Assembly: GCA_022824565.1 (NCBI GenBank)
Contig: JAJDZQ010000112.1
Location: 1-41,520, forward strand
Source: Anaerolineae bacterium
Lineage (GTDB): Bacteria; Chloroflexota; Anaerolineae; Aggregatilineales; Phototrophicaceae
DNA: 41,520 bases
Direction of reading: 5' to 3'
Numbering within the stretch: the first letter of the stretch is position 1; each line of letters opens with the position of its first letter. Position numbers and translations under genes: made by a program. The notes beneath the pieces are model-generated. The model was not told the origin of the DNA and ran no database searches. It saw nothing but the letters and a program-made list of their open reading frames with translations. This document shows, one piece after another, positions 1 through 14,177 of this stretch.

Positions 1-1149
1 GACACCCACGCCATTGCTATCGGCGCGGGCATACTCGGCACGGGCGGCGGCGGCAGCACCTATCTCAACCGCCTGCGCCTGGACAACGAATTGCGCGGGG
101 CCCGCAAATCCCTGCCCATCATCCGCGCCGACGATGTGCCCGACGATGCGCTGGTCTGCGCGGTCGGTGGCATGGGCGCGCCCACGGTCAGCAACGAGAA
201 GCTGCAAGAAGGGCGCGAGATCATGCGCGCCGTCCGCGCCGTAGAAGCCCACCTGCGCCAGCCCATGCACGCCATCATCATTGGCGAGATCGGCGGTGGC
301 AATGCGCTCGGCCCGCTGGTGGCCGCCCTGCAGCTGGGTCTGCCCGCCGTCGATGGCGACAGCATGGGACGCGCCTTCCCCGAGCTGCAGATGGACACTT
401 TCATGATTTATGGCGTTGCGCCGAGCCCCTTTGCCTTGGCCGACACGCACGGCAACATCGCCATCTTCCCGCGCATTGGCAGCCCAAAGCAGGCTGAAGA
501 GTTCGCCCGCAGCCTGACGATCGAGATGGGTGGCAGCGCTGCGCTGGTGATGCCGGTGCTGAGCGGGGCAGATTTGAAGCGCACCATCATCCGCGACACG
601 CTCAGTTTGGCGAAGCGCATCGGCGAAAGTGTGCTGGATTGCCGCGCGCGCAGCATCGAACCAGCCGAGACGATCGCCAGGCTCTGCAAAGGTCGCATTT
701 TGTTCACCGGCAAGATCACCGATGTCGAACGGCGCACTGTGCAGGGGTTCGCCCGCGGCCAGCTGAAAATCGCGCCTTTTCACACCGAGACACCTGCTCC
801 CGACAGCTACTCCACCACCGACCCCTCCCCAACGGGTTGGAGAGGGGAGTCCAGGGTTCAGCCTGCCCCCATCCCGAGGGGGGTATTAAAAATCGACTTC
901 CAAAACGAAAATCTCGTCGCGCGGCTGGGCGATGCTGTGCTGTGCGCTGTGCCCGACCTGATCACGATTGTGAGCCTGGACGACGGCGAGGCGATCGGCA
1001 CAGAGGCGCTGCGATATGGATTGCGCGTGGCGGTGCTGGGCATGCCCGCGCCCAAAGAACTCAAAACGCCCGCAGCGCTGGCGGTGGTCGGTCCGCGCGC
1101 CTTTGGCTACGATATTGACTTCTGCCCGCTGCCAGGTGATTTGTTGTGA
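1..1149 (+). CDS. DUF917 family protein (partial, 5' end outside window)
   Basis: The reading frame is open from base 1, and the first codons already encode the family's glycine-rich signature (GILGTGGGGSTY), so the true start lies just upstream of the window. The C-terminal part carries the other family hallmarks, QNENLVAR and VGPRAFGYD. DUF917 proteins include S-methyl thiohydantoin desulfurases and are often annotated as hydantoinase-associated; the substrate cannot be read here. Odd feature: between QLKIAPF and the conserved LKIDFQNENL segment there are about 30 extra codons (roughly 811-893). They are made of the GC-rich hairpin repeat found between genes elsewhere in this window, kept in frame. 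The gene ends with TGA at 1147-1149, and a toxin-antitoxin pair follows. The family call is confident; the activity is unknown. Confidence 0.85.
   Translation, partial: DTHAIAIGAGILGTGGGGSTYLNRLRLDNELRGARKSLPIIRADDVPDDALVCAVGGMGAPTVSNEKLQEGREIMRAVRAVEAHLRQPMHAIIIGEIGGGNALGPLVAALQLGLPAVDGDSMGRAFPELQMDTFMIYGVAPSPFALADTHGNIAIFPRIGSPKQAEEFARSLTIEMGGSAALVMPVLSGADLKRTIIRDTLSLAKRIGESVLDCRARSIEPAETIARLCKGRILFTGKITDVERRTVQGFARGQLKIAPFHTETPAPDSYSTTDPSPTGWRGESRVQPAPIPRGVLKIDFQNENLVARLGDAVLCAVPDLITIVSLDDGEAIGTEALRYGLRVAVLGMPAPKELKTPAALAVVGPRAFGYDIDFCPLPGDLL
816..895 (+). repeat. Hairpin repeat inserted in frame in DUF917 gene
   Basis: A CCCCTCCCC...GAGAGGGG hairpin with AAC/GTT at the tip is followed by a second C-run/G-run pair ending near 885. 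The same arrangement occurs in intergenic copies at about 3380, 10918 and 12932. It adds residues such as TTDPSPTGWRGES to the protein without breaking the frame. Confidence 0.75.
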
Positions 1150-1169
1150 GGGGCAATCTGTGCTTATAT
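1141..1169 (+). promoter_or_regulatory. Candidate promoter of the toxin-antitoxin pair
   Basis: TTGTTG (1141-1146) and TTATAT (1164-1169) are separated by 17 bases and overlap the end of the DUF917 gene. Transcription would start near 1176, which favours the ATG at 1198 over the one at 1168 as the antitoxin start. Confidence 0.45.
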
Positions 1170-1197
1170 GGTGAGGAAAAGGGAAAGGTCAAATCCA

Positions 1198-1476
1198 ATG
1201 CAAGAGGTGATCGAAAAAGAGACAAGCTTGCACATTGCTGAGGGATCGCATAGCGCACTCTTGGAAGTTGTGCGCGCGATTCATAAGCTCACATTAGAAG
1301 AAAAGGTGCAACTCTTGGAGTACTTGAGCCGCGCTCTGCAACATGACATCAAGCAGCAAGAAAATAAAGACATATCATGGGACGAGTATATCGACAACAC
1401 ATTCGGCAGCTTGCCTAATTTGCGGTTTCGGCGCGACGAATTCGGCAACCGCGAGGTTTACGAAGTTCTGGAATGA
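1198..1476 (+). CDS. Putative antitoxin of a type II toxin-antitoxin pair
   Basis: This small acidic protein of 92 residues lies directly before a PIN-domain toxin and overlaps it by four bases (ATGA, 1473-1476), the usual arrangement for translational coupling. The middle (LTLEEKVQLLEYLSRAL) resembles the helical segments of VapB/Phd-type antitoxins. The charged C-terminus (SWDEYIDNTFGSL onward) would be the toxin-binding arm. An ATG at 1168 would add ten residues, but the purine-rich GGGAAAGG just before 1198 and the candidate promoter favour 1198. No clear DNA-binding fold can be named from the sequence. The antitoxin role is inferred from size, position and overlap. Confidence 0.65.
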   Translation: MQEVIEKETSLHIAEGSHSALLEVVRAIHKLTLEEKVQLLEYLSRALQHDIKQQENKDISWDEYIDNTFGSLPNLRFRRDEFGNREVYEVLE

Positions 1477-1877
1477 TCTACCTGTTAGATACCGACATCT
1501 GCATATACCTGCTAAATGGACGCGAACCGCAAGTGAAGCGCAATGCAGATTTAGTGCACGAATCCGAGATCGCCATTAGCACGTTGACGATGGCGGAAAT
1601 GTTTTCAGGTGCTGCCAGATCAGATCAGCCTTTGCTTACTTATGCAAAACAGTCGGCTTTCTTCATGCGCTATTCGATCCTGCCGTTTGACGAAGCCGCA
1701 GCGAGAGTTTATGGACACATTGATGGATACCTGAAGAACGCAGGCATGAGAATAGGTCCTTTGGACACCCAAATTGCCGCAATCGCTTTGGCGCAAAATT
1801 TGACCCTGGTAACCCACAACACCCAACATTTTCGTCGCGTGCCGCAGCTTGCAATTGAAGACTGGGTAATAAATTAA
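1473..1877 (+). CDS. vapC: VapC-type PIN-domain ribonuclease toxin
   Basis: A 134-residue PIN-domain protein. The acidic metal-binding residues are in place: Asp6 and Asp8 in LLDTDIC, Glu42 in TMAEMFSG, and Asp98 in GPLDTQIAA. The TLVTHNTQHFRRV segment, where VapC proteins carry a conserved T-x-N-x-x-x-F motif, is also present. Members of this family cut tRNA or rRNA in a magnesium-dependent way and are held inactive by the cognate antitoxin. The gene starts within the antitoxin stop codon and has no separate promoter. It sits between a metabolic gene and a sulfatase, typical of an isolated accessory module. Confidence 0.88.
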   Translation: MIYLLDTDICIYLLNGREPQVKRNADLVHESEIAISTLTMAEMFSGAARSDQPLLTYAKQSAFFMRYSILPFDEAAARVYGHIDGYLKNAGMRIGPLDTQIAAIALAQNLTLVTHNTQHFRRVPQLAIEDWVIN

Positions 1878-1899
1878 AGTTCGGATATGGGAGACTTGT

Positions 1900-3366
1900 A
1901 TGCCCGCACAACCACACATCATCATCTTCAACCCCGATCAATGGCGCGGCGATGTCATGGCACATCTGGGCAATCCTGCCGCTGTCACGCCCAACCTCGA
2001 CCACATCGTTGAATCTGATGCCGTCTCCTTCCGCCATGCCTTCTGCCAGAACCCCGTCTGCACGCCCAGCCGCTGCTCATTTATGACGGGCTGGTATCCG
2101 CATGTGCGCGGGCATCGCACCATGTTCCATATGCTGCGTCCAGATGAACCCGTCTTGCTCAAAAAACTCAAAGATGCCGGCTACTTCGTATGGTGGGGCG
2201 GCAAAAACGACCTTGTGCCGCGACAGGCAGGCTTTGAAGACTATTGCGATGTCAAATACGCGGCGGAGCGTCCGCTGCGCCCCAATCTGCACAGCGCCGA
2301 TGATTGGCGTGGCGACCCCGAAGGCGACAATTATTACTCCTTCTTTGCGGGCAAGTTGGATATCGCGCCCGGCGACGAGGTCTATTATGACAACGACTGG
2401 GCGATGGTCGATGGCGCTTGCCAGCAGATCCGCAATGCCCCGCCCGACCAGCCGCTGTGTATCTACCTGCCCATCGGCTATCCGCACCCGCCTTATGGCG
2501 TCGAAGATCCCTGGTTCAGCCAGATCAACCGCGAGGCGCTCCCGGCGCGGCTGCCCACGCCCGACTGGGACAAAAAGCCAGCGCTGCTGCGGGGCATCTA
2601 TGAGCGACAGGGCCTGCAAGATTGGAGCGAAGAACGTCTCACCGAGCTGCGCGCCACCTATTATGGCATGTGCGCCCGCGTCGATGCCCAGTTTGGCAAG
2701 CTGGTTGCCGCCTTGCAAGAGAGCGGACTCTATGACGACAGCGCCATTTTCTTTTTCAGCGATCATGGCGATTTCACTGGCGATTATGGCTTGGTAGAAA
2801 AGACGCAGAACACATTTGAAGATTGCCTGACGCGCGTGCCACTCATCGTCAAGCCGCCTGCCCATGCGCCTGTCCAGCCCGGCAGCCGCGACCAATTGGT
2901 AGAGCTGATCGATTTCACAGCCACCGCCTACGACTGGGCGGGCATCGACCCCGGCTATGACCACTTCGGACGTTCGCTGGCGGGCGTGATCGCCGGCGAC
3001 GAATCCCAACACCGCGATGCCGTCTTTTGCGAAGGCGGACGGCTCTATGGCGAAGAACAAGCCAAAGAGAAAGAAAGCCCGGCCTACGACAACCCCGCCG
3101 TGCTGTATTGGCCTCGCGCCCAGATGCAAAAAAGCGAAAGCGGCTCGCACAGCAAAGCCGCCATGTGCCGCACAAAAACACACAAATATGTACGCCGTCT
3201 CTATGAACGAGACGAGCTCTATGACCTGCGCGCCGACCCGGGCGAGCTGCGCAACCTCATCGACGAGCCAGATTATGCGCCGGCGCTGGCCCAATTGCGC
3301 GACCGGCTGTTAACCTGGTATCAAGAAACCTGCGATGTCGTCCCGCGCGAGACCGATGTGCGCTGA
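1900..3366 (+). CDS. Sulfatase family hydrolase
   Basis: A 488-residue type I sulfatase of the alkaline phosphatase superfamily. The formylglycine motif C-T-P-S-R is at residues 54-58, followed by MTGWYPHVRGHRT; Cys54 is the residue converted to formylglycine by a maturation enzyme. A second metal/active-site segment, FFSDHGDFTGDYG, lies around residue 286. There is no signal peptide, so the protein is probably cytoplasmic. GGGAG lies about ten bases before the ATG. The substrate (sulfate ester, sulfamate or phosphonate-type ester) cannot be decided. It is read convergently with the M28-like gene, and the gap between them is filled by hairpin repeats. Confidence 0.88.
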   Translation: MPAQPHIIIFNPDQWRGDVMAHLGNPAAVTPNLDHIVESDAVSFRHAFCQNPVCTPSRCSFMTGWYPHVRGHRTMFHMLRPDEPVLLKKLKDAGYFVWWGGKNDLVPRQAGFEDYCDVKYAAERPLRPNLHSADDWRGDPEGDNYYSFFAGKLDIAPGDEVYYDNDWAMVDGACQQIRNAPPDQPLCIYLPIGYPHPPYGVEDPWFSQINREALPARLPTPDWDKKPALLRGIYERQGLQDWSEERLTELRATYYGMCARVDAQFGKLVAALQESGLYDDSAIFFFSDHGDFTGDYGLVEKTQNTFEDCLTRVPLIVKPPAHAPVQPGSRDQLVELIDFTATAYDWAGIDPGYDHFGRSLAGVIAGDESQHRDAVFCEGGRLYGEEQAKEKESPAYDNPAVLYWPRAQMQKSESGSHSKAAMCRTKTHKYVRRLYERDELYDLRADPGELRNLIDEPDYAPALAQLRDRLLTWYQETCDVVPRETDVR

Positions 3367-3373
3367 CCCCTAT

Positions 3374-3497
3374 CCCAAACCCCTCCCCGTCGGGACGGAG
3401 AGGGTAGCCAGTGCTTGCTTCCCCCTGACTCGTCGGGGGGACCGAGGGGGGTTGCGCTTCCCCCTGACCTGTCGGGGGGGGGACCGAGGAGGATTAG
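3374..3497 (+). repeat. Array of three GC-rich hairpin repeats between convergent genes
   Basis: From left to right: a CCCCTCCCC/GAGAGGG hairpin with GTC/GAC at the tip and the tail TAGCCAGTGC (3380-3411), then two copies of the CCCCCTGAC-nn-GTCGGGGGG hairpin (near 3422 and 3463), each followed by GACCGAGG. The last copy abuts the stop codon of the M28-like gene. There is no T-run, so these are not standard intrinsic terminators, but they could still block read-through or stabilise the two converging mRNAs. Confidence 0.75.
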
Positions 3498-5266
3498 ATC
3501 TTCCCCAGCGCCGCCCTGGCGATATTCGCCGAGCTTTCCAATGCCCAGGCCACGCGATTGACGCCACGAACGAGATGCGTGCGCGTGACACGCCGCATGT
3601 GATGATCGGCATTGGCAAGGTCCAGCGCTGGCGCCAGATCGGGCAATTGCGGAACGCGCATGGCCGGCTCGGTGCGGAAGCGCCCCTGCCGCGTGAAGTT
3701 GATCAGCACCAGTTCGCGCGCCATAGCCAGCAAGGCATCGTTGACCGCGCGCACCCCGGCATCAGCAACCGCGCCCTCCGCCAGCCCTTCAGCCGCCGCA
3801 TACAGTTCATCCAGCGCATCATTCAAGTCTTCCAGCGCAGCGGTCGCCGGCGAAAAATCAACCTCAGCGCCGGCCGCCGCCGCATATTCTCCCAACGTCT
3901 CGGCGAACTCTGCCGTCAGCGCGCGGAAGTCATAAGGATGCAGTGGATTATTGAGCAGGCGCTGCAGCGAGGCGGCATACACGCGCAGGTCGCGCATGAG
4001 GTGGTCTTTGTCGGCGATTTCCAGCGTGTCATTTTCGGTATGCCAGGCGATATTCGCCCCACAGCCACCCACCGCGTAATAGCCCATCTCGGCAGCTTTG
4101 GATAGCGGCATGGATGACAGCAGCATGAACAAGCTGGAGATGCCGATGTTATTGAAAGAATAATCGCCAGCCTGGTGCGGGCGCTCGCCAGTGAAGCCCA
4201 GCCCGGTCGAATCCTGCACCGCCTGTTTGGCGAAGTCATGCGCCTCGCTCATGATGGTGACGCCGCGATATTCGGTCGCCCAGCGGCAGCCCGGCGAGTC
4301 GATATTCATCTGCGCCACACAATCGCGCGCCAGGTCCAAGCCATATTGATCGGCATACCAGGTCGATGCGCCATACCGGCCCGTGGAATGCCCCGACCAC
4401 CAAGCCACCCGCAATGTCCGCGCCATATTGTCAGCCTGGCTATGGAAGATGCGCGCCAGCTCGAGCAGGGTCGCATTGCCCACCGCGTTGTCGCCGATGC
4501 CCACATCCCAGCTGTCGACATGCCCGTGCACCAGCACAAAGCGCTCGGGCTCGATATTGCCTTTGATTTCCGCCACCAGGCAGGGACATTCAAACCAGCC
4601 CTCTTTCAGCTGCGTGTGCAGGGTGGCTTCGGTCTGGCCATCCGCCATGCGCTGCATCAGGTCTTCGCCATCGGGACGGTTGATGGACAAGACGGGGATA
4701 TTGGGCTGGCGCTGATAATTGTCCAGGTCGGGCGCGCCCCAGATGGTCGTGCAGATGCCCCAGTGGATGTCTACGCCAGGATTGATAAAGATCGCGCCGA
4801 TAGCGCCCTGATTTTGGAAATACCAGACCGGCGGCGGACCCCCAAAGCCATCCACCACCACAATCTTGCCGCGCACATCGACTTCGGTAACGGGCGTGAA
4901 ATCGAAGAAATCGGCGCTGCGTCCAGCCGCGAAACCTTCGATGCGCACCATCTCGCCAGAAACACCGGCCGCAGGCGTGCTGATAGAAAATGCCGGCGTC
5001 TTGGCGCGGTATGACTTGCTGCCCACCGCCAAAGATGCCCGCACCGGCACACTCAAAAATAGCTCGGGCCTGTGCATCTCGTGCGGGATACCCAGCGCTT
5101 CCAGCCGCCCGGCAATATAAGCAAAGGCTGCGCGCTCGTCGGCAGATGACGATTCGCGCACCAGGCTGGTGAAGCGCTCCAGCAACGACCAGGGCTCGTC
5201 CGGCGCGAGGCTATCCAGCAGAGCCGCTTCCAAATCTCCTTGTTTGGCTTCGTACAATGTTTGCAT
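3494..5266 (-). CDS. M28-like zinc peptidase with PA-type insert
   Basis: About 590 residues. An N-terminal helical region and a protease-associated-type insert precede the M28 core. Candidate metal residues: His249 and Asp251 (HVDSW), Asp259 (GDNAVG), Asp323 (NIDSPG) and His409 (AWHTEND). At the place of the usual Glu-Glu pair (general base plus zinc ligand) the sequence reads SGHSTGRYG with Gly292-His293, so the mechanism is altered or the protein is not a classical aminopeptidase. No signal peptide is visible. A TTG at 5299 would give a longer frame, but ATG at 5266 is preceded by GGAGG with 11 bases between, and the candidate promoter would start transcription near 5300. The gene is divergent from the M20 peptidase, and both probably act on peptides or acylated amino acids. 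Confidence 0.8.
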   Translation of the reverse strand: MQTLYEAKQGDLEAALLDSLAPDEPWSLLERFTSLVRESSSADERAAFAYIAGRLEALGIPHEMHRPELFLSVPVRASLAVGSKSYRAKTPAFSISTPAAGVSGEMVRIEGFAAGRSADFFDFTPVTEVDVRGKIVVVDGFGGPPPVWYFQNQGAIGAIFINPGVDIHWGICTTIWGAPDLDNYQRQPNIPVLSINRPDGEDLMQRMADGQTEATLHTQLKEGWFECPCLVAEIKGNIEPERFVLVHGHVDSWDVGIGDNAVGNATLLELARIFHSQADNMARTLRVAWWSGHSTGRYGASTWYADQYGLDLARDCVAQMNIDSPGCRWATEYRGVTIMSEAHDFAKQAVQDSTGLGFTGERPHQAGDYSFNNIGISSLFMLLSSMPLSKAAEMGYYAVGGCGANIAWHTENDTLEIADKDHLMRDLRVYAASLQRLLNNPLHPYDFRALTAEFAETLGEYAAAAGAEVDFSPATAALEDLNDALDELYAAAEGLAEGAVADAGVRAVNDALLAMARELVLINFTRQGRFRTEPAMRVPQLPDLAPALDLANADHHMRRVTRTHLVRGVNRVAWALESSANIARAALGKI

Positions 5267-5306
5267 TTCGGGTGCATCCTCCACAATGAACAGAAACAAC
5301 AGCGCG

Positions 5307-5335
5307 ATTGTAACCCACCAGGGCGCGAAAGCGAA
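5307..5335 (-). promoter_or_regulatory. Candidate promoter of the M28-like gene
   Basis: On the minus strand TTCGCT (5335-5330) and TACAAT (5312-5307) are 17 bases apart. The -10 match is good and the -35 is weak. The predicted transcript start near 5300 supports the ATG at 5266. Confidence 0.4.
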
Positions 5336-5430
5336 ATGAAATGGGCCAGGCTGGAGACTATCCCGTCACTGCCAAAGACTATGGTACGATTGACCAACAG
5401 CCGGTACGCCAACTTTGGCGCTGGGCAGCC

Positions 5431-6813
5431 ATGAGGAATGCCGCCAATCCAGACATGACCGCAGACGACCTCTCAGCCGCGCTCGACTGCGCACGAGAAC
5501 GCCAGGCCGACTATTTGCACGGCTTCAAAACGTTGCTGCGCTTCCCGTCTATCAGTCTGGAGCGGGCACGCCGAGTTGACTTGCTGGAATGCGCCGAGTG
5601 GCTCGCGGACCAGATGCGCCGAGCCGGGCTGGATCATGCGCAACTGCTGCCCACTGCGGGCAATCCGATTGTATATGGCAACTGGCTGCATGCGGGCCCC
5701 GACAAGCCCACCATCTTGCTCTATGCCCACTACGATGTACAGCCGATCGCCGATGCCGCCCTGTGGCATACGCCGCCTTTCCAACCGACTGTAGTGAAAG
5801 AGCGGCTAATCGCTCGCGGCGCGGTCGATGACAAATGCGGCGTCTGGATCGCGCTCAAAGCTGTCGAATCAATCCTGGCAGCCTGCGCACGGTTGCCCAT
5901 CAACATCAAATGCCTCTTCGAAGGCGAAGAAGAGCTGGGCTCCAAGAACACAATCGCCGCGCTGAATCAATATCGCGACTTGTTGGCGGCCGACGCGTTG
6001 ATCATCTGCGATGGGCCTTTTTCGCCAAGCCAGCCCGGCATCGGCGTATCGGTGCGTGGCGCAGTGCAGGGCGAGCTGCGTGTAACGGGTCCGCCCCAGG
6101 ACTTGCACAGCGGACGCTATGGCGGCGCGGTGCGCAATCCCATCCACAGCCTGGCGCGCATCATCTCCGCGCTGCACGACAGCGAAGGCCGGGTGCAGCT
6201 GCCGGGTTTCTATGCGCAGGCGCTGCAACCACCAGCGCTCATGCCAGATGCCAACGCAGATTTCCAAAATGCGGCGGGCGTAGCTGGTTTCTTTGGCGAA
6301 TCGCTGGGTTCTTTTGCAGTTCGGACAACTTTGCTGCCGACTCTGGATGTGGGCGGGATTGCTGGCGGCTACAGCGGCAACGGACTCCGCGCGATTATCC
6401 CGGCAGAAGCGAACTGCAAATTGACCCTGCGCACAGTGCCGGGGCAAGACGGCGCAGAGATCTGGGCGAGCTTGGTCGAGCATGCCGAGGCCTTCCGCGA
6501 GCCGGGCATAGACATAGAAGCCAGGCTGCACAGCATCGCCCATCCTTTCGCCATGGCTGCAGAGGGGCGCGAGGCGAGTGCCCTGCGGCGGGCGCTGGAA
6601 TCGACGTTGGGCGTGCCGGCGCGGCTGCTGCGGCATGGCGGCTCGCTGGCAATCGGTGGCGTCTTGGCGCGACTGTTGGAGGCGCCTGTCAGTATGCTGG
6701 GCTTGGGCTCGGGCGGCAATTCACACGCGGCGAACGAATACATCGTGCTGGACGATTTCGCGCCGGCGCTCGAAGTGGCGATTCGCTTGTTTTTTGAACT
6801 GGCTGCGGAATAA
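5431..6813 (+). CDS. M20 family metallopeptidase (dipeptidase-like)
   Basis: About 460 residues from the ATG at 5431. It shows the two-zinc M20 pattern: His100 and Asp102 in YAHYDVQP, the bridging Asp in GAVDDKCG (Asp133 or Asp134), and the catalytic Glu166-Glu167 in FEGEEELGS. The middle portion is the dimerisation lid typical of the family. It resembles the dipeptidases and acyl-amino-acid hydrolases that carry the HYDVQP motif. The frame is open back to an ATG at 5341, but those 30 residues look non-conserved. The ribosome site before 5431 is weak, so the start is uncertain. It ends 35 bases before the convergent ABC permease gene. It likely works with the neighbouring M28-like enzyme and the ABC importer in peptide use (inferred from context). 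Confidence 0.88.
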   Translation: MRNAANPDMTADDLSAALDCARERQADYLHGFKTLLRFPSISLERARRVDLLECAEWLADQMRRAGLDHAQLLPTAGNPIVYGNWLHAGPDKPTILLYAHYDVQPIADAALWHTPPFQPTVVKERLIARGAVDDKCGVWIALKAVESILAACARLPINIKCLFEGEEELGSKNTIAALNQYRDLLAADALIICDGPFSPSQPGIGVSVRGAVQGELRVTGPPQDLHSGRYGGAVRNPIHSLARIISALHDSEGRVQLPGFYAQALQPPALMPDANADFQNAAGVAGFFGESLGSFAVRTTLLPTLDVGGIAGGYSGNGLRAIIPAEANCKLTLRTVPGQDGAEIWASLVEHAEAFREPGIDIEARLHSIAHPFAMAAEGREASALRRALESTLGVPARLLRHGGSLAIGGVLARLLEAPVSMLGLGSGGNSHAANEYIVLDDFAPALEVAIRLFFELAAE

Positions 6814-6848
6814 ACCGCGACTGGTCGAGGCGGGGCTGAGGAGCGCTT

Positions 6849-7766
6849 TCAATCCCCGCGCACATCCAGCACATCGCGCAGGGCATCGCCCAGGAAGTTG
6901 ATGCTCAACACCGTGATCATAATCGCCAAACCCGGATAGATGCCCAGCCACCAGGCGCGCGAAAAGAAGCTGCGGGCATCGCTGATGATCAGCCCCCAGG
7001 TCGGCGTGGACGGCTTGACACCCAAGCCCAGGAAAGACAAGCCCGCTTCTGCCAGGATGGCGAAAGACACGCTGAGCGTAGCTTGCACGATGATGGGCGC
7101 GATGGCATTGGGCAAGATATGCCGCAGCATGATGCGCGCATTTGACGCTCCCATCGAGCGCGCCGCCAGCACATATTCTTCTTCGCGGATCGACAGCACC
7201 ATGCCGCGCGTGATGCGGGCGAAATCGTCCAGGAATGCCAGCACGATAGCCACAATGACATTCTCTAGCCCTGTGCCAAAGATCGCCACCAGATACACCG
7301 CGATGATGAAATTGGGGAATGCCCACTGCAAATCGATATAACGCATGAAAATGGTGTCGATCCAGCCGCCGTAATAGCCCGAAAGCACACCCATCGCCAC
7401 GCCCAGCAGCATCGAAATCGACACCGCCACCACACCCACAAACAGCGAAACGCGCGCGCCATACAAAATGCGCGTGAACAAGTCGCGTCCCAGGTCATCG
7501 GTGCCCAGCAGATGCATGCTCGAAGGCGGCTGCAAAATATCAAATTCCTGGCTCAGTGGGTCGTAGGGAGAAATAACCGACGCGAACAGGGTGCTGAGAA
7601 CGATCGTGCCCAGCATCAGCAGACTGGCGATCGCGCGTTTTTCCCGCAACAGTTGCTGCCAGGCGCGCGGGCGCTGGGGCAGGCTGGGCTGCTCAATGCC
7701 GCGCATCTGCACAACAGAATCTTGCTTCCCCCTGACTTGTCGGGGGGACCGACGGGGGTTAGTCAT
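6849..7766 (-). CDS. ABC transporter permease, DppC/OppC type
   Basis: About 305 residues, with the family N-terminal helix (SLLMLGTIVLSTLFASVI), the HLLGTDDLGRDLFTRILYG signature, and the EAA cytoplasmic loop (AARSMGASNARIMLRHILPN) that contacts the ATPase. At least five membrane segments are visible. It is the second permease of a peptide/nickel-class importer and overlaps the upstream dppB-type gene by eight bases. The first 20 or so codons (NPRRSPRQVRGK) are encoded by a copy of the hairpin repeat. An ATG at 7706 (MRGIEQPSL) would remove this tail and still give a full-length permease; neither start has a convincing ribosome site. No DppD/DppF ATPase gene is next to it. Confidence 0.9.
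   Translation of the reverse strand: MTNPRRSPRQVRGKQDSVVQMRGIEQPSLPQRPRAWQQLLREKRAIASLLMLGTIVLSTLFASVISPYDPLSQEFDILQPPSSMHLLGTDDLGRDLFTRILYGARVSLFVGVVAVSISMLLGVAMGVLSGYYGGWIDTIFMRYIDLQWAFPNFIIAVYLVAIFGTGLENVIVAIVLAFLDDFARITRGMVLSIREEEYVLAARSMGASNARIMLRHILPNAIAPIIVQATLSVSFAILAEAGLSFLGLGVKPSTPTWGLIISDARSFFSRAWWLGIYPGLAIMITVLSINFLGDALRDVLDVRGD
7723..7764 (+). repeat. Hairpin repeat at the dppB/dppC junction
   Basis: One copy of the CCCCCTGAC-TT-GTCGGGGGG hairpin with the GACCGACGGGGG tail. It overlaps the apparent first codons of the downstream permease gene and ends at the stop codon of the upstream one. Confidence 0.75.
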
Positions 7767-8700
7767 AGCTGATGCGCGGGTCGATCACGCGGTAGAGCAT
7801 ATCGACCGCCAGATTCATGAATACCAGCAAGACCGCCACCAGCAGGATACTGCCCTGCACGACCGGATAATCGCGGTTGAGGATGCTTTGGATCAACACC
7901 CGCCCCAGCCCCTTGATGGCGAAGACATTTTCCACCACCACCGAGCCAGAAAATAGCAGCGCCAGCGAGATGCCCATGACAGTGACGACCGGGATCAAGG
8001 CATTGCGCAAGGCATGCCGAAAGATGACGCGGCGCTCGTTCAGCCCCTTGCTGCGCGCCAGGGTGATGTAATCCTGCCCCAGCACTTCCAGCATGGCGCT
8101 GCGTGTCAAGCGGGCGATAGAAGCCGAAAATGGCAAGCCCACCGCCAGCCCGGGCAATATCAAATAGCGCAGCCACTGGTCCAGCCCGGCGCTCATGGGT
8201 CGATAGCCGATGGCGGGGAACCAGCGCAGATTGACAGCGAAGACGATAATGAGCACGATACCTATCCAAAATGAGGGCATGCTGATGCCCAAGAAAGCCG
8301 CGAAGTTGAAGCCATAATCCAGCGGGCTGTCTTTCTTCACCGCCGAAATGACGCCAGCCGACAAGCCCAACGTGAACGACACCAGGAAAGCCACCATCGC
8401 CAGCGATACCGTGCGCGGCACCGCCTCGGCGATCTGCACGCTAACAGCTTGATGACTGCCATATAGCGACTGCCCCAGGTCGCCAGACAGGGTATTGCGC
8501 AGCCAGAAGAGATATTGCACGATGACCGGCTGGTCCAAGCCCAGCTTGGCGCGGATGGCATCGGCGGCAGTAGGATCGACATCTGCCAGCAGCGCGGCAA
8601 TGGGATCGCCCGGCACCGCCCGCAGCATGAAAAAGACCAGGGTGCCCACCGCCCAGACGACAATCAACGCCTGTATCACCCGCGCGACAAAATAGCGCAT
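7759..8700 (-). CDS. ABC transporter permease, DppB/OppB type
   Basis: 313 residues and full length for the family. It opens with MRYFVARVIQALIVVWAVGT and the FFMLRAVPGDP motif that marks DppB/OppB/NikB proteins. The EAA loop (TLARSKGLNERRVIFRHALRN) near residue 215 is the contact site for the ATPase. About six membrane helices are visible. Together with the following permease it forms the channel of a dipeptide/oligopeptide/nickel-class importer. It lies between the binding-protein gene (162 bases upstream) and the second permease (overlapping), so the three form one minus-strand operon starting at the promoter near 10760. Confidence 0.92.
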   Translation of the reverse strand: MRYFVARVIQALIVVWAVGTLVFFMLRAVPGDPIAALLADVDPTAADAIRAKLGLDQPVIVQYLFWLRNTLSGDLGQSLYGSHQAVSVQIAEAVPRTVSLAMVAFLVSFTLGLSAGVISAVKKDSPLDYGFNFAAFLGISMPSFWIGIVLIIVFAVNLRWFPAIGYRPMSAGLDQWLRYLILPGLAVGLPFSASIARLTRSAMLEVLGQDYITLARSKGLNERRVIFRHALRNALIPVVTVMGISLALLFSGSVVVENVFAIKGLGRVLIQSILNRDYPVVQGSILLVAVLLVFMNLAVDMLYRVIDPRISYD

Positions 8701-8749
8701 GTCCCGGTTTGCCCCTGATGCTTTGCTACCAAATCGCTATGTAACCGCC

Positions 8750-8857
8750 CCGGTCCCCCCAAAGAATCGGGGAGAAGGTTTCGCCGCGATTTCGCCAAAA
8801 TATCGGCGCGCGCTTTACCTCCCCCCTGACTTGTCGGGGGGATTGAGGGGGGTCGCC
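8750..8857 (+). repeat. Hairpin repeats between binding-protein and permease genes
   Basis: A short CCCCCC/CGGGGAG pair near 8755-8774 and a full CCCCCTGAC-TT-GTCGGGGGG copy at 8819-8842 with a GATTGAGGGGGG tail. They lie inside the transcribed operon, where such hairpins often protect or trim the upstream mRNA. That role is an inference. Confidence 0.7.
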
Positions 8858-8862
8858 CGCAG

Positions 8863-10698
8863 CTAGCTCAAACTCACCCTATCCAGATCGCGCAAGCCAA
8901 CAATGCGGCTTTCTGGCGGATAAGTCACCTCGGCGCGATGCACAAGAATCTCGGTGCCATGGAAGATGAAGATGGACGCCAGCTTGTCGCTGGTCAATTG
9001 GTTGGCTTCTTGCACCAGAGCCTTGCGCGCGGCGGGGTCGGCGGTGATCGCCTGCTGGTTGATCAATTCGTCGACGCGATCGGCGGCGAAGAAGCCAAAA
9101 TCCCGCTCGCCATATTGTTCGACCAGGTCGGCATCGTTGCGGTTGGCGCCATTAAAGCGCGAGCCGCGCAGCATCCAGTCGACCAAGCCATCGTCAGGAT
9201 CAAAGTCGCCGCCGCTGCCCAGCCGCAGCAGGTCGTATTCCATGCGGTTGGCATCTTCGATCAACACAGTGAAGTCCTTGATGTCCAGCTCGATGGCGAT
9301 GTTGAGGTTGGTGCGGTACATGTCGACGATGACTTCGGCTTGACGGCGTCCGGCCGGCGTGGTCAACAGCTTCAAGGTGGGGAAGCCCTCGCCACCGGGA
9401 TAGCCCGCGTCCGCCAGCAATGCCTGCGCCGCCTCGACATCAAACCGTTGTTCGCTGGTTTCGTTGATGCCGGTGTCGAAGTAATAACCCATCGCCGGAT
9501 TGATCGTGCCGAAGGCTGGCACGCCGCGCCCAAACAAAGCGCGCTGGATGAAGCGCTCGCGATCAAAGGCTTTTGCCAGCGCCAGCCGCACTTTGAAGCC
9601 GTTCTGCTGCTTCAACTCAGCGACCGACAGGTTGAAGTCCTCGACCACCATAGGCTCGCGCCAGGGATTGACGAAGACCGACTGGAAGCCGTTGCCGGGG
9701 ATCTCGTCCACGACCAGGTCGGGGTTCATCAAAAAGCGGTCGACCAACTCGGCAGCCACGCCATTGCCGCCGATGAGGTGGATATCGCCGGTTTCGATCG
9801 CGGCAGCCAGCGGCTCGTTTTCTGGGATGGGGATGATGGTCACCTTGTCGACGACCGGGCGGGCCGGGTCATAATAATCATCGAAGCGCTCCAGCACGAC
9901 TCCCTGCCCCAGCTGGTGCCCAGTAACGCGGAAGGGACCTGTCCCGACCGGCATCAAGCCATAATCTGCCAAGCCCATGCTGTCGATGGCGTTGCTGTTG
10001 ACGATGGTCATGGCGCGGCCGCTGCTGCGTTCCAAGGTCTTGACCAGCAGAGAAGCTTGCGGCTTGCCCAGGGTCAACTGCACGGTCATGTCGTCCAACG
10101 CGACCACATCCAGCACATTGACCAGGTTGCCATAGTGAATCGACTGCTCGGGATCTTTGGAGCGATTGTATGTGAAGACGACATCGGCAGCCGAAAAAGC
10201 ATCGCCATTGTGCCAGGTGACGCCTTCGCGCAGGTTGAATGTCCACACCAAGCCATCATCAGAAACAGTCCAGTCGGTGGCCAAGTCGCCTTCTGCCACC
10301 AGGTCGGCATTGATATGCGTCAAGCCGCTGAGCACATTGGATGCCACCTGGAATTGCAGCACCTGGTTGATCTGCGCGGGATCGAGGGTGGTGATTTCTG
10401 CTGTGCCCGCCCAGCCACAAATCAGGTGTCCGCCGCCCTGGGCGAAAGCGCGCGTGGCTGTTGGCAGAGCGATGCCAGCCGCCCCCAGCAGATGCGACAA
10501 GGACAGCGAGCCGCCCGAGGCCGCCACCAGCCGCATAAATGAACGCCGGCTCAGCTTCGGACCGCTGATCTCGTCTTTGCTCAAGCCAAAGAGCGGATCG
10601 GCCGGGTCAAAGTCATAGGCGCGGCGCTGCTCCTCGGCGATGCGCGCTTTCTGCTCGCCAGTCAGGCGCGCAAATAGGTCTTGTAGTCGTTTGTTCAT
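8863..10698 (-). CDS. Peptide/nickel-class ABC transporter substrate-binding protein (Tat signal)
   Basis: 611 residues of the SBP_bac_5 (DppA/OppA) family, shown by GVTWHNGDAFSAADVVFTYNR around residue 155. A cytoplasmic lead of about 48 residues precedes a twin-arginine motif, SRRSFMRL, with Arg51-Arg52. A hydrophobic stretch and a plausible AFA cleavage site near residue 86 follow, so the protein is likely exported folded by Tat. No lipobox cysteine is seen, so membrane anchoring is unclear. GGAGG lies eight bases before the ATG, and a near-consensus promoter sits about 60-90 bases upstream. It heads the operon with the two permeases. The ligand cannot be read; the peptidases nearby suggest peptides. 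Confidence 0.92.
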   Translation of the reverse strand: MNKRLQDLFARLTGEQKARIAEEQRRAYDFDPADPLFGLSKDEISGPKLSRRSFMRLVAASGGSLSLSHLLGAAGIALPTATRAFAQGGGHLICGWAGTAEITTLDPAQINQVLQFQVASNVLSGLTHINADLVAEGDLATDWTVSDDGLVWTFNLREGVTWHNGDAFSAADVVFTYNRSKDPEQSIHYGNLVNVLDVVALDDMTVQLTLGKPQASLLVKTLERSSGRAMTIVNSNAIDSMGLADYGLMPVGTGPFRVTGHQLGQGVVLERFDDYYDPARPVVDKVTIIPIPENEPLAAAIETGDIHLIGGNGVAAELVDRFLMNPDLVVDEIPGNGFQSVFVNPWREPMVVEDFNLSVAELKQQNGFKVRLALAKAFDRERFIQRALFGRGVPAFGTINPAMGYYFDTGINETSEQRFDVEAAQALLADAGYPGGEGFPTLKLLTTPAGRRQAEVIVDMYRTNLNIAIELDIKDFTVLIEDANRMEYDLLRLGSGGDFDPDDGLVDWMLRGSRFNGANRNDADLVEQYGERDFGFFAADRVDELINQQAITADPAARKALVQEANQLTSDKLASIFIFHGTEILVHRAEVTYPPESRIVGLRDLDRVSLS

Positions 10699-10756
10699 CT
10701 TCGTCCTCCGTCCTGTTTACCTGGTTTAGACTACAAATCATATTCCTTGCAAGAAG

Positions 10757-10785
10757 AGTATAGAAGCTCGGCGCGTCTCATGCAA
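10757..10785 (-). promoter_or_regulatory. Promoter of the ABC importer operon
   Basis: On the minus strand TTGCAT (10785-10780) and TATACT (10762-10757) are spaced 17 bases apart, a near-consensus housekeeping promoter. The transcript would start near 10750 with a leader of about 50 bases before the binding-protein ATG, which has a strong GGAGG. Confidence 0.72.
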
Positions 10786-10795
10786 AAAGATGAAA

Positions 10796-11040
10796 GCTCC
10801 TCCCGCATTTTGGGGGGACAGGACAGGTTTCCAAGCGAGCGCACCCCACCCCCAGCCCTCCCCAAAGAGACAGCGTAGGGGCGAGGCGGTGACTCGCCCA
10901 TTTAACCCCTCCCCCAGCCCCTCCCCAACAGGTTGGAGAGGGTAGCCAATGCCTTATGCTCCTTCCGACCCGAAAGGTGGATTGATTGGGTGTGAAAAGC
11001 CCCTCCCTCATTTTGGGGCAGGGATTTGGGGTGGGGGGAT
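10796..11040 (+). repeat. Composite GC-rich repeat, copy 1 (3' side of acyl-CoA ligase)
   Basis: Parts in order: GTAGGGGCGAGG...ACTCGCCCA palindrome half (10875-10900), CCCCTCCCC/GAGAGGG hairpin with AAC/GTT tip (10918-10945), TAGCCAATGCCTTAT, GACCCGAAAGGTGGATTGAT, and a CCCCTCCCTCATTTTGGGG segment ending in GGGGTGGGGG. The same modules in the same order and orientation recur at 12849-13087. Apart from the promoter at 10757-10785, the gap between the two minus-strand genes holds no gene. Confidence 0.85.
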
Positions 11041-11062
11041 GATAACACCAGATCAACATAGA

Positions 11063-12565
11063 CTATTCGCAAACTTGCGCGCGCAGGGCAGCTTTCTGCA
11101 CTTTGCCCAGGGCATTGCGAGGCAAGTCGGCGGCGAAGATCACCCGGCGCGGCGTTTTGTAGGCAGCCAGCCGTTCGCGGCAGTGCGCGCAAAGTTCGTC
11201 CGCAGCCGGGGCAGCGCCTGGCTCGGGCACGATGACCGCCACGACCAGCTCGCCCCACTCCGCATCTGGGCAGCCGATCACTGCGCAAGCCGCCACATCC
11301 GCGTGCGTCATCAAGGCCAATTCCACTTCGGGCGGATAAACATTCAAGCCGCCGCTGATGATGAGGTCTTTGGCGCGCCCCTTGAGGGTGAAGTAGCCAT
11401 CGTGCGAGCGAGAACCCAGATCGCCCGTGCGCAGCCAGCCATCTTCTGTGAACGCTTGCGCGGTCTTTTCGGGCTGCCGCCAATAACCAGCGAAGACATG
11501 CGCGCCGCGAATCTGCACTTCGCCCACCACATCATTGGGCAGGGGCAGGTCGGTTTCGGGGTCGGCGATGCGCGCCTGCACGCCTGGCAGGGGACCGCCA
11601 ACACAGCCAACGCGCCGCTCGCCATGCAGTGGATTGGACAGGTTCATGCCTGTCTCGGTCATGCCATACCGTTCCAGCAGGGTCACGCCGAAGGTGCGCT
11701 GATAGCCAAAAAAGAGATCGTCGGGCAGGCGGTCGCTGCCAGAAGTCAACAGCCGCATATGGCCCAGGGCGATGCGCCGCCCGGCCGCTTGCGCATAGAG
11801 TCGCCGGTGCATGGTGGGCACACCCATGAAGACCGAGTAGCGCCGGCTTTGCAGCAAGTCCAGCACAGCCGCCGCGTCAAAGCCAGGCAGCAGGTCGGCG
11901 GTCGCGCCAGCATGCAGCGCTCCGTGCAGCGCCACAACCAGCCCGTGCACATGAAAGATGGGCAGCGCATGCAGCAGCCTATCGTCCGCGCGCCAGCCCC
12001 AGGCTGAATGCAAGGCCTGGATGTTGGCAGTCAAGTTGCCATGCGTAATCAGCGCGCCTTTGGGACGGCTGGTTGTGCCGCTGGTATACAGCATCATGGC
12101 CGTCTGGTCGGGATCGCCGGGCGGGCTCACGGGGTTGGCGGAATAGCTGCCGACGCGCTCCAGCCAGGGCGAACTCGCGTCGATGAAGAGGGTCTCTTGC
12201 AGCGCTGGCAGGCTGGCGATCATCTCGGCAAGCGCCGACTGTTTCGCCACATCGGCGAATAACAAGCGAGCGCCCGCATCTGCCAAGAAGTAGCGCAATT
12301 CGGCAGGCGGATAACCAGGATTCAAGGGCAGAAATACCGCGCCAATTTGCATCGCCGCCAGATGCAGGTAAATGAAGGGCAGGCATTTGGGCAGCTGCAC
12401 AGCCAGCCGGTCGCCAGGTTCGGTGCCCAGCGCGCGCAGAAAGTGGGCCGTGCGACTGGTCGTTTCTGCCAACTGCGCATAGCTGACCGCCTCGCCACCG
12501 CTGAACTGGATAGCGGTTTTTTGCGGATTGCTTCGGCAGTTTTCGGCGATGGCATCGAGGAACAT
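11063..12565 (-). CDS. Acyl-CoA ligase of the AMP-binding family, malonyl-CoA synthetase (MatB)-like
   Basis: About 500 residues from the ATG at 12565. The adenylate-forming motifs are clear: [11 protein letters not shown] (phosphate loop), [20 protein letters not shown] and the C-terminal [16 protein letters not shown] hinge with the lysine-bearing tail GKVQKAALR. Segments such as [18 protein letters not shown] and [11 protein letters not shown] match malonyl-CoA synthetases better than long-chain ligases, so a short dicarboxylic or carboxylic acid substrate is likely; this is from recall of the family and not proven. The frame extends to 12667 but the extra residues are non-conserved. The gene stands alone, flanked on both sides by copies of the composite repeat in direct orientation. 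Confidence 0.85.
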
Positions 12566-12678
12566 AGGCAACCTGTACTGGTTCGTGATTAAATTATCGT
12601 TGTACCCTAATATCGCCACAGAAGTAAAGGCAAGTAAGTCATGCGACAACCAGGCAACGCCGCTCAAATTCGAAATCC

Positions 12679-12748
12679 GTAGGGGCTAGACTTGTCTCGC
12701 CCATAATTTCTCCGTTGACCCTGTGGGCGACTCAAGAGGCGCCCCTAC
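12679..12748. repeat. 70-base element with imperfect terminal inverted repeats
   Basis: The left end (12679-12703) begins GTAGGGGC and ends TCGCCCA. The right end (12724-12748) is its reverse complement with 19 of 25 positions matching. The same 25-base end motif occurs singly in the composite repeats near 10875 and 12888 and at 14271. It looks like a small non-coding palindromic element (REP/MITE-like). Confidence 0.65.
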
Positions 12749-12758
12749 GACGTTCCTC

Positions 12759-12797
12759 CATATTGTTGCACTACTTCATATTGTTGCACTACTTCAT
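12759..12797. repeat. 18-base tandem duplication
   Basis: Two perfect copies of CATATTGTTGCACTACTT (12759-12776 and 12777-12794) followed by a partial third (CAT). It lies in the non-coding gap upstream of the acyl-CoA ligase gene and is AT-rich compared with its surroundings. Confidence 0.85.
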
Positions 12798-12848
12798 TGG
12801 ACTTACTTAAGACACAGCGAGCACGGATAACACAGCGCGTGTAGAGAG

Positions 12849-13087
12849 CACTTCAACCCCTCCCCCAGCCCCTCCCTAATGAGACAGCGTAGGGGCGAGG
12901 CGGTGACTCGCCCATTTAACCCCTCCCCCAGCCCCTCCCCGACGAGTCAGGGAGGGTAGCCAATGCCTTATCCTCCCGACCCGACAGGTGGATTGATGGT
13001 GGGTGAAAATCCCCTCCCTCATGTTGGGGGAGGGGATTGGGGTGGGGGTCAGCCTCCCCCTGACTTGTCGGGGGGACCTGGGGGTGA
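12849..13087 (+). repeat. Composite GC-rich repeat, copy 2 (5' side of acyl-CoA ligase)
   Basis: Same module order as copy 1. The hairpin tip has changed to GAC/GTC (12940-12949), so pairing is kept. The end carries an additional CCCCCTGAC-TT-GTCGGGGGG copy (13054-13074) before the stop codon of the C45-family gene. The stretch 12566-13091 holds no gene: it contains only the 70-base element, the 18-base tandem repeat and this composite repeat. Confidence 0.85.
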
Positions 13088-13091
13088 ACAA

Positions 13092-14177
13092 TCAGATAAC
13101 GAAACGTTCGTAGCTGCCATCGGCGGGCGGACCCCAAACCGACCAGAATTCGCCGCTGGACGGGCACATGATGGCCGCGCCGCAGCTTTCTACATGCATG
13201 GGCGGTTTCGGTCGCGCGCAGATCGCCACTTCGTCGCGCGTCAGTTCCATCAGGTCGTCCAGGCTGGCTGCGGGATTATCCAGCAATTCCTGGGCGCGCC
13301 GCAGACGATTGCGCGAGCTGGCTTGCGATTCGGGTGGTCGTTCCCGCTCGATATCCAGATTCTGCTGGATGAGGCAGTGGTTGGTGTGGATGATGGATTT
13401 GTCCTGCAGCGGGCGGACATGCTGGCGCGTGGACATGGCTTCGACTTCATAACCGCGCCCTCGCTTGTCCATCAGCATATAATTGTGCGCGCCGGCCAGC
13501 TTGGCTTCTGTCAGGCAGGCCAGCGCCGCTTCGATGCTCGTCTGCTGCAAGATCTTGCGCACGACGAATACCCAGGTGACGCCGATCTGCCCGTCAGCCG
13601 CCATCAGGTTGTTGATGCCGACGCAGATGCCGGCGCTGTTCATGCCGATCATGCCCACGCAGCCGGTGATGGTGAATGCCAGGAATGCCGGCGCAGCTTC
13701 GGGCTTGCCGCGCAGCAGAATGACATAGGGAGTCGCCGAAGCGTGCATATCCCAAGTCTGCCCAAAGTAGCCGACTCCCGCGGCGCTGCGACAGCCCGGC
13801 AGCATAAAGGCCGTGCAATTGTCGGCGGACCGCGCTGTTGGTTGTGCCATTCCACCACAGTTGTAGACGACATCGATGAAGTCGGTGAAACCGTTGTTGA
13901 TGACCAACTCGGCCAGGCTCAGCCCGGTCGCATCGGCCATGCCGCGCAGCTCGTCCATCAGCTCCGGCGCATAGGCGATGTGCTCTTCGACGCAGGCGGC
14001 TGCCAGGTCGAGCACAGCTGCGCGCGTCAGGCTGCGTCCCGTCCATTTGGCGTCCATGCACAGGCGCACACGCTCTTCGGTGAACATGTGGATCTCGTCA
14101 TGGAAGCGCTTCCCATGCGCGAAGCCCATTGTATAGGGGCTGCCCTGCAGGTCGATGACGCGGAGTTTGTTCAGCAT
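13092..14177 (-). CDS. C45-family acyltransferase/amidohydrolase (penicillin acyltransferase-like)
   Basis: 361 residues related to isopenicillin-N acyltransferase (peptidase family C45, Ntn-hydrolase fold). The candidate nucleophile is Cys121 in ADNCTAF, before which these proteins cut themselves to expose the N-terminal cysteine. The later GMIGMNSAGICVGINNL segment is also typical. The N-terminus GSPYTMGFAHGKRFHDEI matches the family pro-region. Substrates are N-acyl amides or acyl-CoA-dependent transfers; none can be assigned here. Its position beside an acyl-CoA ligase and peptidases fits acyl-amino-acid or peptide metabolism (inference). The ATG at 14177 is the natural start. Confidence 0.85.
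   Translation of the reverse strand: MLNKLRVIDLQGSPYTMGFAHGKRFHDEIHMFTEERVRLCMDAKWTGRSLTRAAVLDLAAACVEEHIAYAPELMDELRGMADATGLSLAELVINNGFTDFIDVVYNCGGMAQPTARSADNCTAFMLPGCRSAAGVGYFGQTWDMHASATPYVILLRGKPEAAPAFLAFTITGCVGMIGMNSAGICVGINNLMAADGQIGVTWVFVVRKILQQTSIEAALACLTEAKLAGAHNYMLMDKRGRGYEVEAMSTRQHVRPLQDKSIIHTNHCLIQQNLDIERERPPESQASSRNRLRRAQELLDNPAASLDDLMELTRDEVAICARPKPPMHVESCGAAIMCPSSGEFWSVWGPPADGSYERFVI

Follow-up and report, generated by a model that had tools for sequence, protein, structure and literature searches.

In-frame palindromic inserts in protein-coding genes are an established phenomenon, as exemplified by the Rickettsia palindromic elements (RPEs) and by the GTAG/CGTC-tagged REPs. RPEs are short hairpin repeats that occur both between genes and fused in frame within conserved protein genes (Ogata et al. 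2000; PMC2229807), and the product of the RPE-bearing gmk gene is translated and active (PMC2229807). Tagged REPs are hairpins of 20-40 bp that form dimers and clusters and lie in frame within known genes across several phyla, and insertion at roughly the same recB site has been reported once, for two Xanthomonas species; the defining mark of RAYT-associated REPs is a hairpin tagged at one end with GTAG or CGTC (PMC3733652). Bacterial MITEs such as ERIC/RU-1 and YPAL/RU-2 are non-autonomous as well as repetitive, and their open frames can be fused into genes; most of those described are rich in A+T and have TA ends as well as target duplications (PMC2229807).

The repeat analysed here is an element of the same kind as RPEs, as it occurs in intergenic DNA and also, with the frame kept, inside conserved genes, both in the genome of the window (the whole 41,520-nt stretch of an Anaerolineae contig, phylum Chloroflexota, that was analysed) and in related genomes. 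As a sequence family, it is different. The RPE of the alphaproteobacterium Rickettsia is a palindrome of 105-146 bp whose terminal inverted repeats measure 12 bp, whereas the GC-rich unit here spans about 36-41 nt, consists of a C5-6/G6 hairpin plus ACCGAGGGGGG, and is largely restricted to one Chloroflexota genus, where it is mostly intergenic and is used in either orientation and in five or more frames. The comparison with Rickettsia made by the sequence-only reading of this DNA thus stands as a likeness but not as membership. Unlike tagged REPs, the repeat carries neither GTAG nor CGTC as a terminal tag in the consensus of 77 copies, and capture at the same site recurs in numerous species, in a paralogue family and in several genes. 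Unlike the MITEs described, it is G+C-rich; it forms a hairpin, and a DNA alignment of one empty/filled site, in a sulfatase gene, revealed no target-site duplication. What is new is the repeat and its host group, together with the recurrence of capture at fixed loops across many species and genes. A literature search of incomplete coverage brought up no description of the repeat from Chloroflexota, and Rfam gave no match for window positions 1-14000.

Each unit (C5-6, short loop, G6, ACCGAGGGGGGT) is a GC-rich hairpin, usually located between genes and often arranged in tandem at 36-41 nt. The exact 16-nt core, GGGGGGACCGAGGGGG, is present in 82 copies in the genome of the window (G000), or 164 with one mismatch allowed, compared with 0 and 2, respectively, for the reversed core, which has no exact match in the whole genus. 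The consensus derived from 77 contexts is GC(C/T)TCCCCCTGAC(Y)(Y)GTCGGGGGGACCGAGGGGGGT, with G/C-rich and less conserved flanks. The core was detected in 31 of the 34 genomes of the genus (uncultured Anaerolineae/Chloroflexota MAGs, many of them fragmented) and in just seven of 400 sampled Chloroflexota genomes, none of which except G000 contained more than two copies; outside the genus, copies number one or two. The spacings of the tandem copies listed for the genomes are distributed over all three phases, indicating that the repeat unit does not itself account for frame-keeping within genes. No mobiliser was found: the three genomes with the most copies (G000, G098 and G115) have no match to the Y1 transposase (RAYT, PF01797), which gave weak partial matches in some other genomes and a strong one only in G099, a genome without the core. 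Two candidate peculiarities of the repeat were rejected: it is not unusually stop-free (5.08 of 6 frames open versus 5.07 for shuffles), and its folding energy is no better than that of shuffles. In several G000 contigs, cores lie a few hundred bases or less from an end, and the repeats thus probably interrupt the assembly.

The coding sequence at the start of the window remains open across the repeat segment and encodes a member of the S-Me-THD (DUF917) family, as indicated by high-scoring matches to both Pfam domains (PF06032, E 3.5e-55; PF20906, E 2.3e-62) and by the family fold (Foldseek to 2o3i, E 7e-20). Positions 780-930 have a best match of 89% identity over 44 nt elsewhere in the genome (E 1.7e-9) and 27 matches at E<=0.001, self included, and positions 816-856 belong to a repeat family with other window copies at 3374, 10912 and 12926. 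The first copy in the loop reads CCCCTCCCC...GGAGAGGGG (about 806-856); the second is eroded in G000 and keeps the full core, GGGGGGACCGAGGGGGG, in the G115 orthologue, whose loop is 21 nt longer (Table 1). These data bear out the sequence-only reading in placing an intergenic repeat, with the frame kept, inside the DUF917 gene. The limits it proposed (811-895) were close but inexact, as alignment with 30 orthologues from the genus places the variable segment at residues 261-295 (781-885), and its figure of about 30 added residues agrees with the net gain of 29.

Table 1 Repeat-related features of the window.
Feature	Positions	Strand	Basis or remarks
S-Me-THD (DUF917) gene, 382 aa	1..1149	+	ORF, Pfam domains; contig edge truncates 5' end
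Repeat-derived loop, residues 261-295, 35 codons replacing 6 of short-loop orthologues	781..885	+	Orthologue alignment; AlphaFold
First repeat copy, CCCCTCCCCAACGGGTTGGAGAGGGG type	806..856	+	Family D3; 89% over 44 nt to C120, E 1.7e-9
Eroded second copy, a C5/G6 hairpin (C5..G6)	861..885	+	Orthologue alignment
Sulfatase (1900-3366), empty site	2358..2371	+	DNA alignment; PF00884 on G115 protein
Both repeat types, in the sulfatase-peptidase intergenic gap	3374..3453	+	Families D2, D3
Dispersed repeat copy	7721..7760	+	Family D2
Dispersed repeat copy	8815..8854	+	Family D2
Repeat array	10844..11037	+	Families D1, D5, D3
Repeat array	12858..13088	+	Families D1, D5, D3, D2

The AlphaFold model of the S-Me-THD protein has a mean pLDDT of 90, exceeding 90 in the core and falling to about 50 in the insert, which sits between two confidently predicted strands (residues 250-258 and 296-301). 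The insert is thus probably a disordered loop, and the low pLDDT of the inserts in general suggests disorder and exposure. Outside the loop, purifying selection acts on the protein (dN/dS of 0.07-0.19 among five close species). The loop codons are under relaxed constraint: between G000 and G115, 9 of 12 changed codons in the loop are nonsynonymous, compared with 10 of 51 elsewhere, in addition to the 21-nt indel.

Alignment of the 31 orthologues from the genus (427 columns, one row being cut N-terminally) contains a single internal gap, which corresponds to this loop. A short form, with 17 residues between GFARG and FQNE, is found in 20 of the 31 orthologues, as well as in G099 and all outgroup genera on the tree, and the remaining 11 possess extended loops of 20 to 53 residues, all in frame. 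Most of the extended loops contain recognisable copies of the genus repeat, in both orientations and several frames. Specifically, the loop comprises a CCCCTCCCC-type copy ahead of a core copy in G000 and G115, a core copy alone in G098, a reverse-oriented core read as PLGPPNELG in G100, a composite read as RRGDRGG in G119 and G130, and a segment read as GGPRGV in G111 and G116. On a tree inferred with the loop masked, the long-loop species require six changes, and the AU test rejects a single long-loop clade (p 1.8e-62). Because these species do not form a clade, capture probably recurred among the orthologues. The same loop is extended in seven genomes in a paralogous S-Me-THD family, most of the extensions being plainly the repeat and again in both orientations, and measures 16 residues in the sister sequences. 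Altogether, the inserts use at least five of the six reading frames and both orientations, and hence do not represent one inherited peptide. A search for unrelated loops of equal length at this position brought up two of intermediate length, without obvious repeat: L012 (G126), nested in a clade whose other members bear the repeat, and L018 (G103), sister to a repeat-bearing species. Given these positions beside repeat-bearing relatives, both loops may be eroded copies, which would be the simplest reading. The sequence-only proposal that a non-coding repeat became protein sequence is supported by the orthologue alignment, the short-loop outgroups, the recurrence in species, paralogues and other genes, and the predicted lack of structure of the insert.

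The scattered distribution of long loops might alternatively reflect one or a few ancestral captures within the genus, subsequently spread or lost through recombination between species. The loops of G116, G119 and G130, which match each other at 88-89% across about 80 nt in genes that are not sisters, fit such a scenario, and exchange of alleles between species could account for these shared composites. However, G116 and G119 have this composite outside long open frames as well, so it may have arrived independently. Furthermore, the short alleles keep exactly 17 residues, such that each loss would have to be exact, and lineages differ in repeat type, orientation and frame, even within the clade of G000, G115, G098, G126 and G100. 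We therefore regard allele exchange as unlikely to explain the overall pattern.

The repeat extends to other genes, as the sequence-only reading had suggested might be checked; the intragenic copies came to light when the surroundings of exact cores were read, and their numbers are not unbiased genome counts. The 77 distinct core contexts of G000 yielded two clear conserved genes, encoding a class II aldolase and a type ISP restriction enzyme, and the 43 cores of G098 (40 stretches) yielded a molybdenum hydroxylase and a PMT_2 glycosyltransferase (L328:489-2399), with three more genes of G098 recovered through the orthologue work. Open frames in which the repeat falls in a spurious extension beyond the conserved domain (L153, L297, L087 and similar) were dropped. 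The aldolase contains the repeat in one loop in ten genomes (G000, G114, G109, G130, G101, G119, G111, G106, G123 and G103) and has the short form in G115, G098, G118, G105 and others; its insert (residues 92-105) has a pLDDT under 50, in a weaker AlphaFold model, and a PDB sequence search with the aldolase returned no match. The insert in the type ISP enzyme of G000 is about 100 residues long and consists of several repeats, and that in the molybdenum hydroxylase (about 21 residues) is missing from the solved relative 1sij. The SHMT-GcvT protein of G129 and an ABC permease of G119 also carry the repeat. The G103 aldolase (L251:321-1193) has three in-frame tandem 42-nt units of 14 residues each (PIPPNSLGGTERGL-PIPPDASGGTEGGL-PIPPNSLGGTEGGL, the first read without the leading P), a BNR-repeat protein of G129 (L295:789-3026) has two separate in-frame inserts, and the PMT_2 transferase has, beside the repeat, three copies of another tandem repeat of 15 residues, KARADSVNRSRMGGG. 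Finally, the sulfatase site is empty in G000, G126 and G100 and filled in frame by a reverse-oriented repeat in the sister species G115 and G098, and both junctions look like replacement rather than clean insertion.

Recurrent filling of the same loops in several enzymes could also be envisioned as the outcome of selection for the insert, which would act in the protein as a linker or binding loop, or in the mRNA as a hairpin affecting translation. Such a role is very unlikely, considering that the length, sequence, frame and orientation of the insert vary freely, that most species lack it, that substitution in the loop is relaxed, and that the folding energy does not improve on that of shuffles. 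Local slippage or GC-biased expansion, with a merely compositional likeness to the intergenic repeat, is compatible with the poly-C and poly-G runs and with the three tandem units of the G103 aldolase, but is extremely improbable given that a specific, non-symmetric ACCGAG-containing core recurs in unrelated genes and intergenic DNA while the reversed pattern has no match genus-wide.

Our results strongly favour a model in which a dispersed GC-rich repeat enters genes and its frame-keeping copies survive in tolerant loops and are translated. Under this model, the genus bears a probably mobile, non-autonomous hairpin repeat that is mostly intergenic but would also land, or be copied, in genes; gene-breaking copies would be lost, and frame-preserving ones in exposed, flexible loops would persist, presumably as neutral and translated segments. 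Copies in the S-Me-THD gene would have replaced a 6-residue hairpin turn and then eroded via substitutions and in-frame indels, the tolerant loop having been filled, apparently by independent insertions, in about six orthologue lineages and a paralogous family. A stronger version, in which the loops are preferred landing pads and some activity copies the repeat over a short target stretch, replacing it, would explain the same-site recurrence across species and paralogues and imply a new mobilisation system without RAYT, yet we consider it decidedly doubtful. Non-coding repeat DNA appears to have been turned into protein more than once and in the recent past, sister species differing in whether a site is empty or filled. 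In these otherwise gap-free enzymes, one can directly count how new protein segments arise, spread and decay, and an RPE-like process is now seen in another phylum, with a repeat of no known mobiliser.

Two further features of the window were observed. Positions 1168-1877, between the S-Me-THD and sulfatase genes, hold a small gene pair that resembles, by reading, a PIN-domain toxin and its antitoxin. Downstream, the arrays at 10844-11037 and 12858-13048 constitute long direct repeats (87-88% identical, about 2014 nt apart) that flank an acyl-CoA synthetase-like gene on the minus strand (11063-12667).
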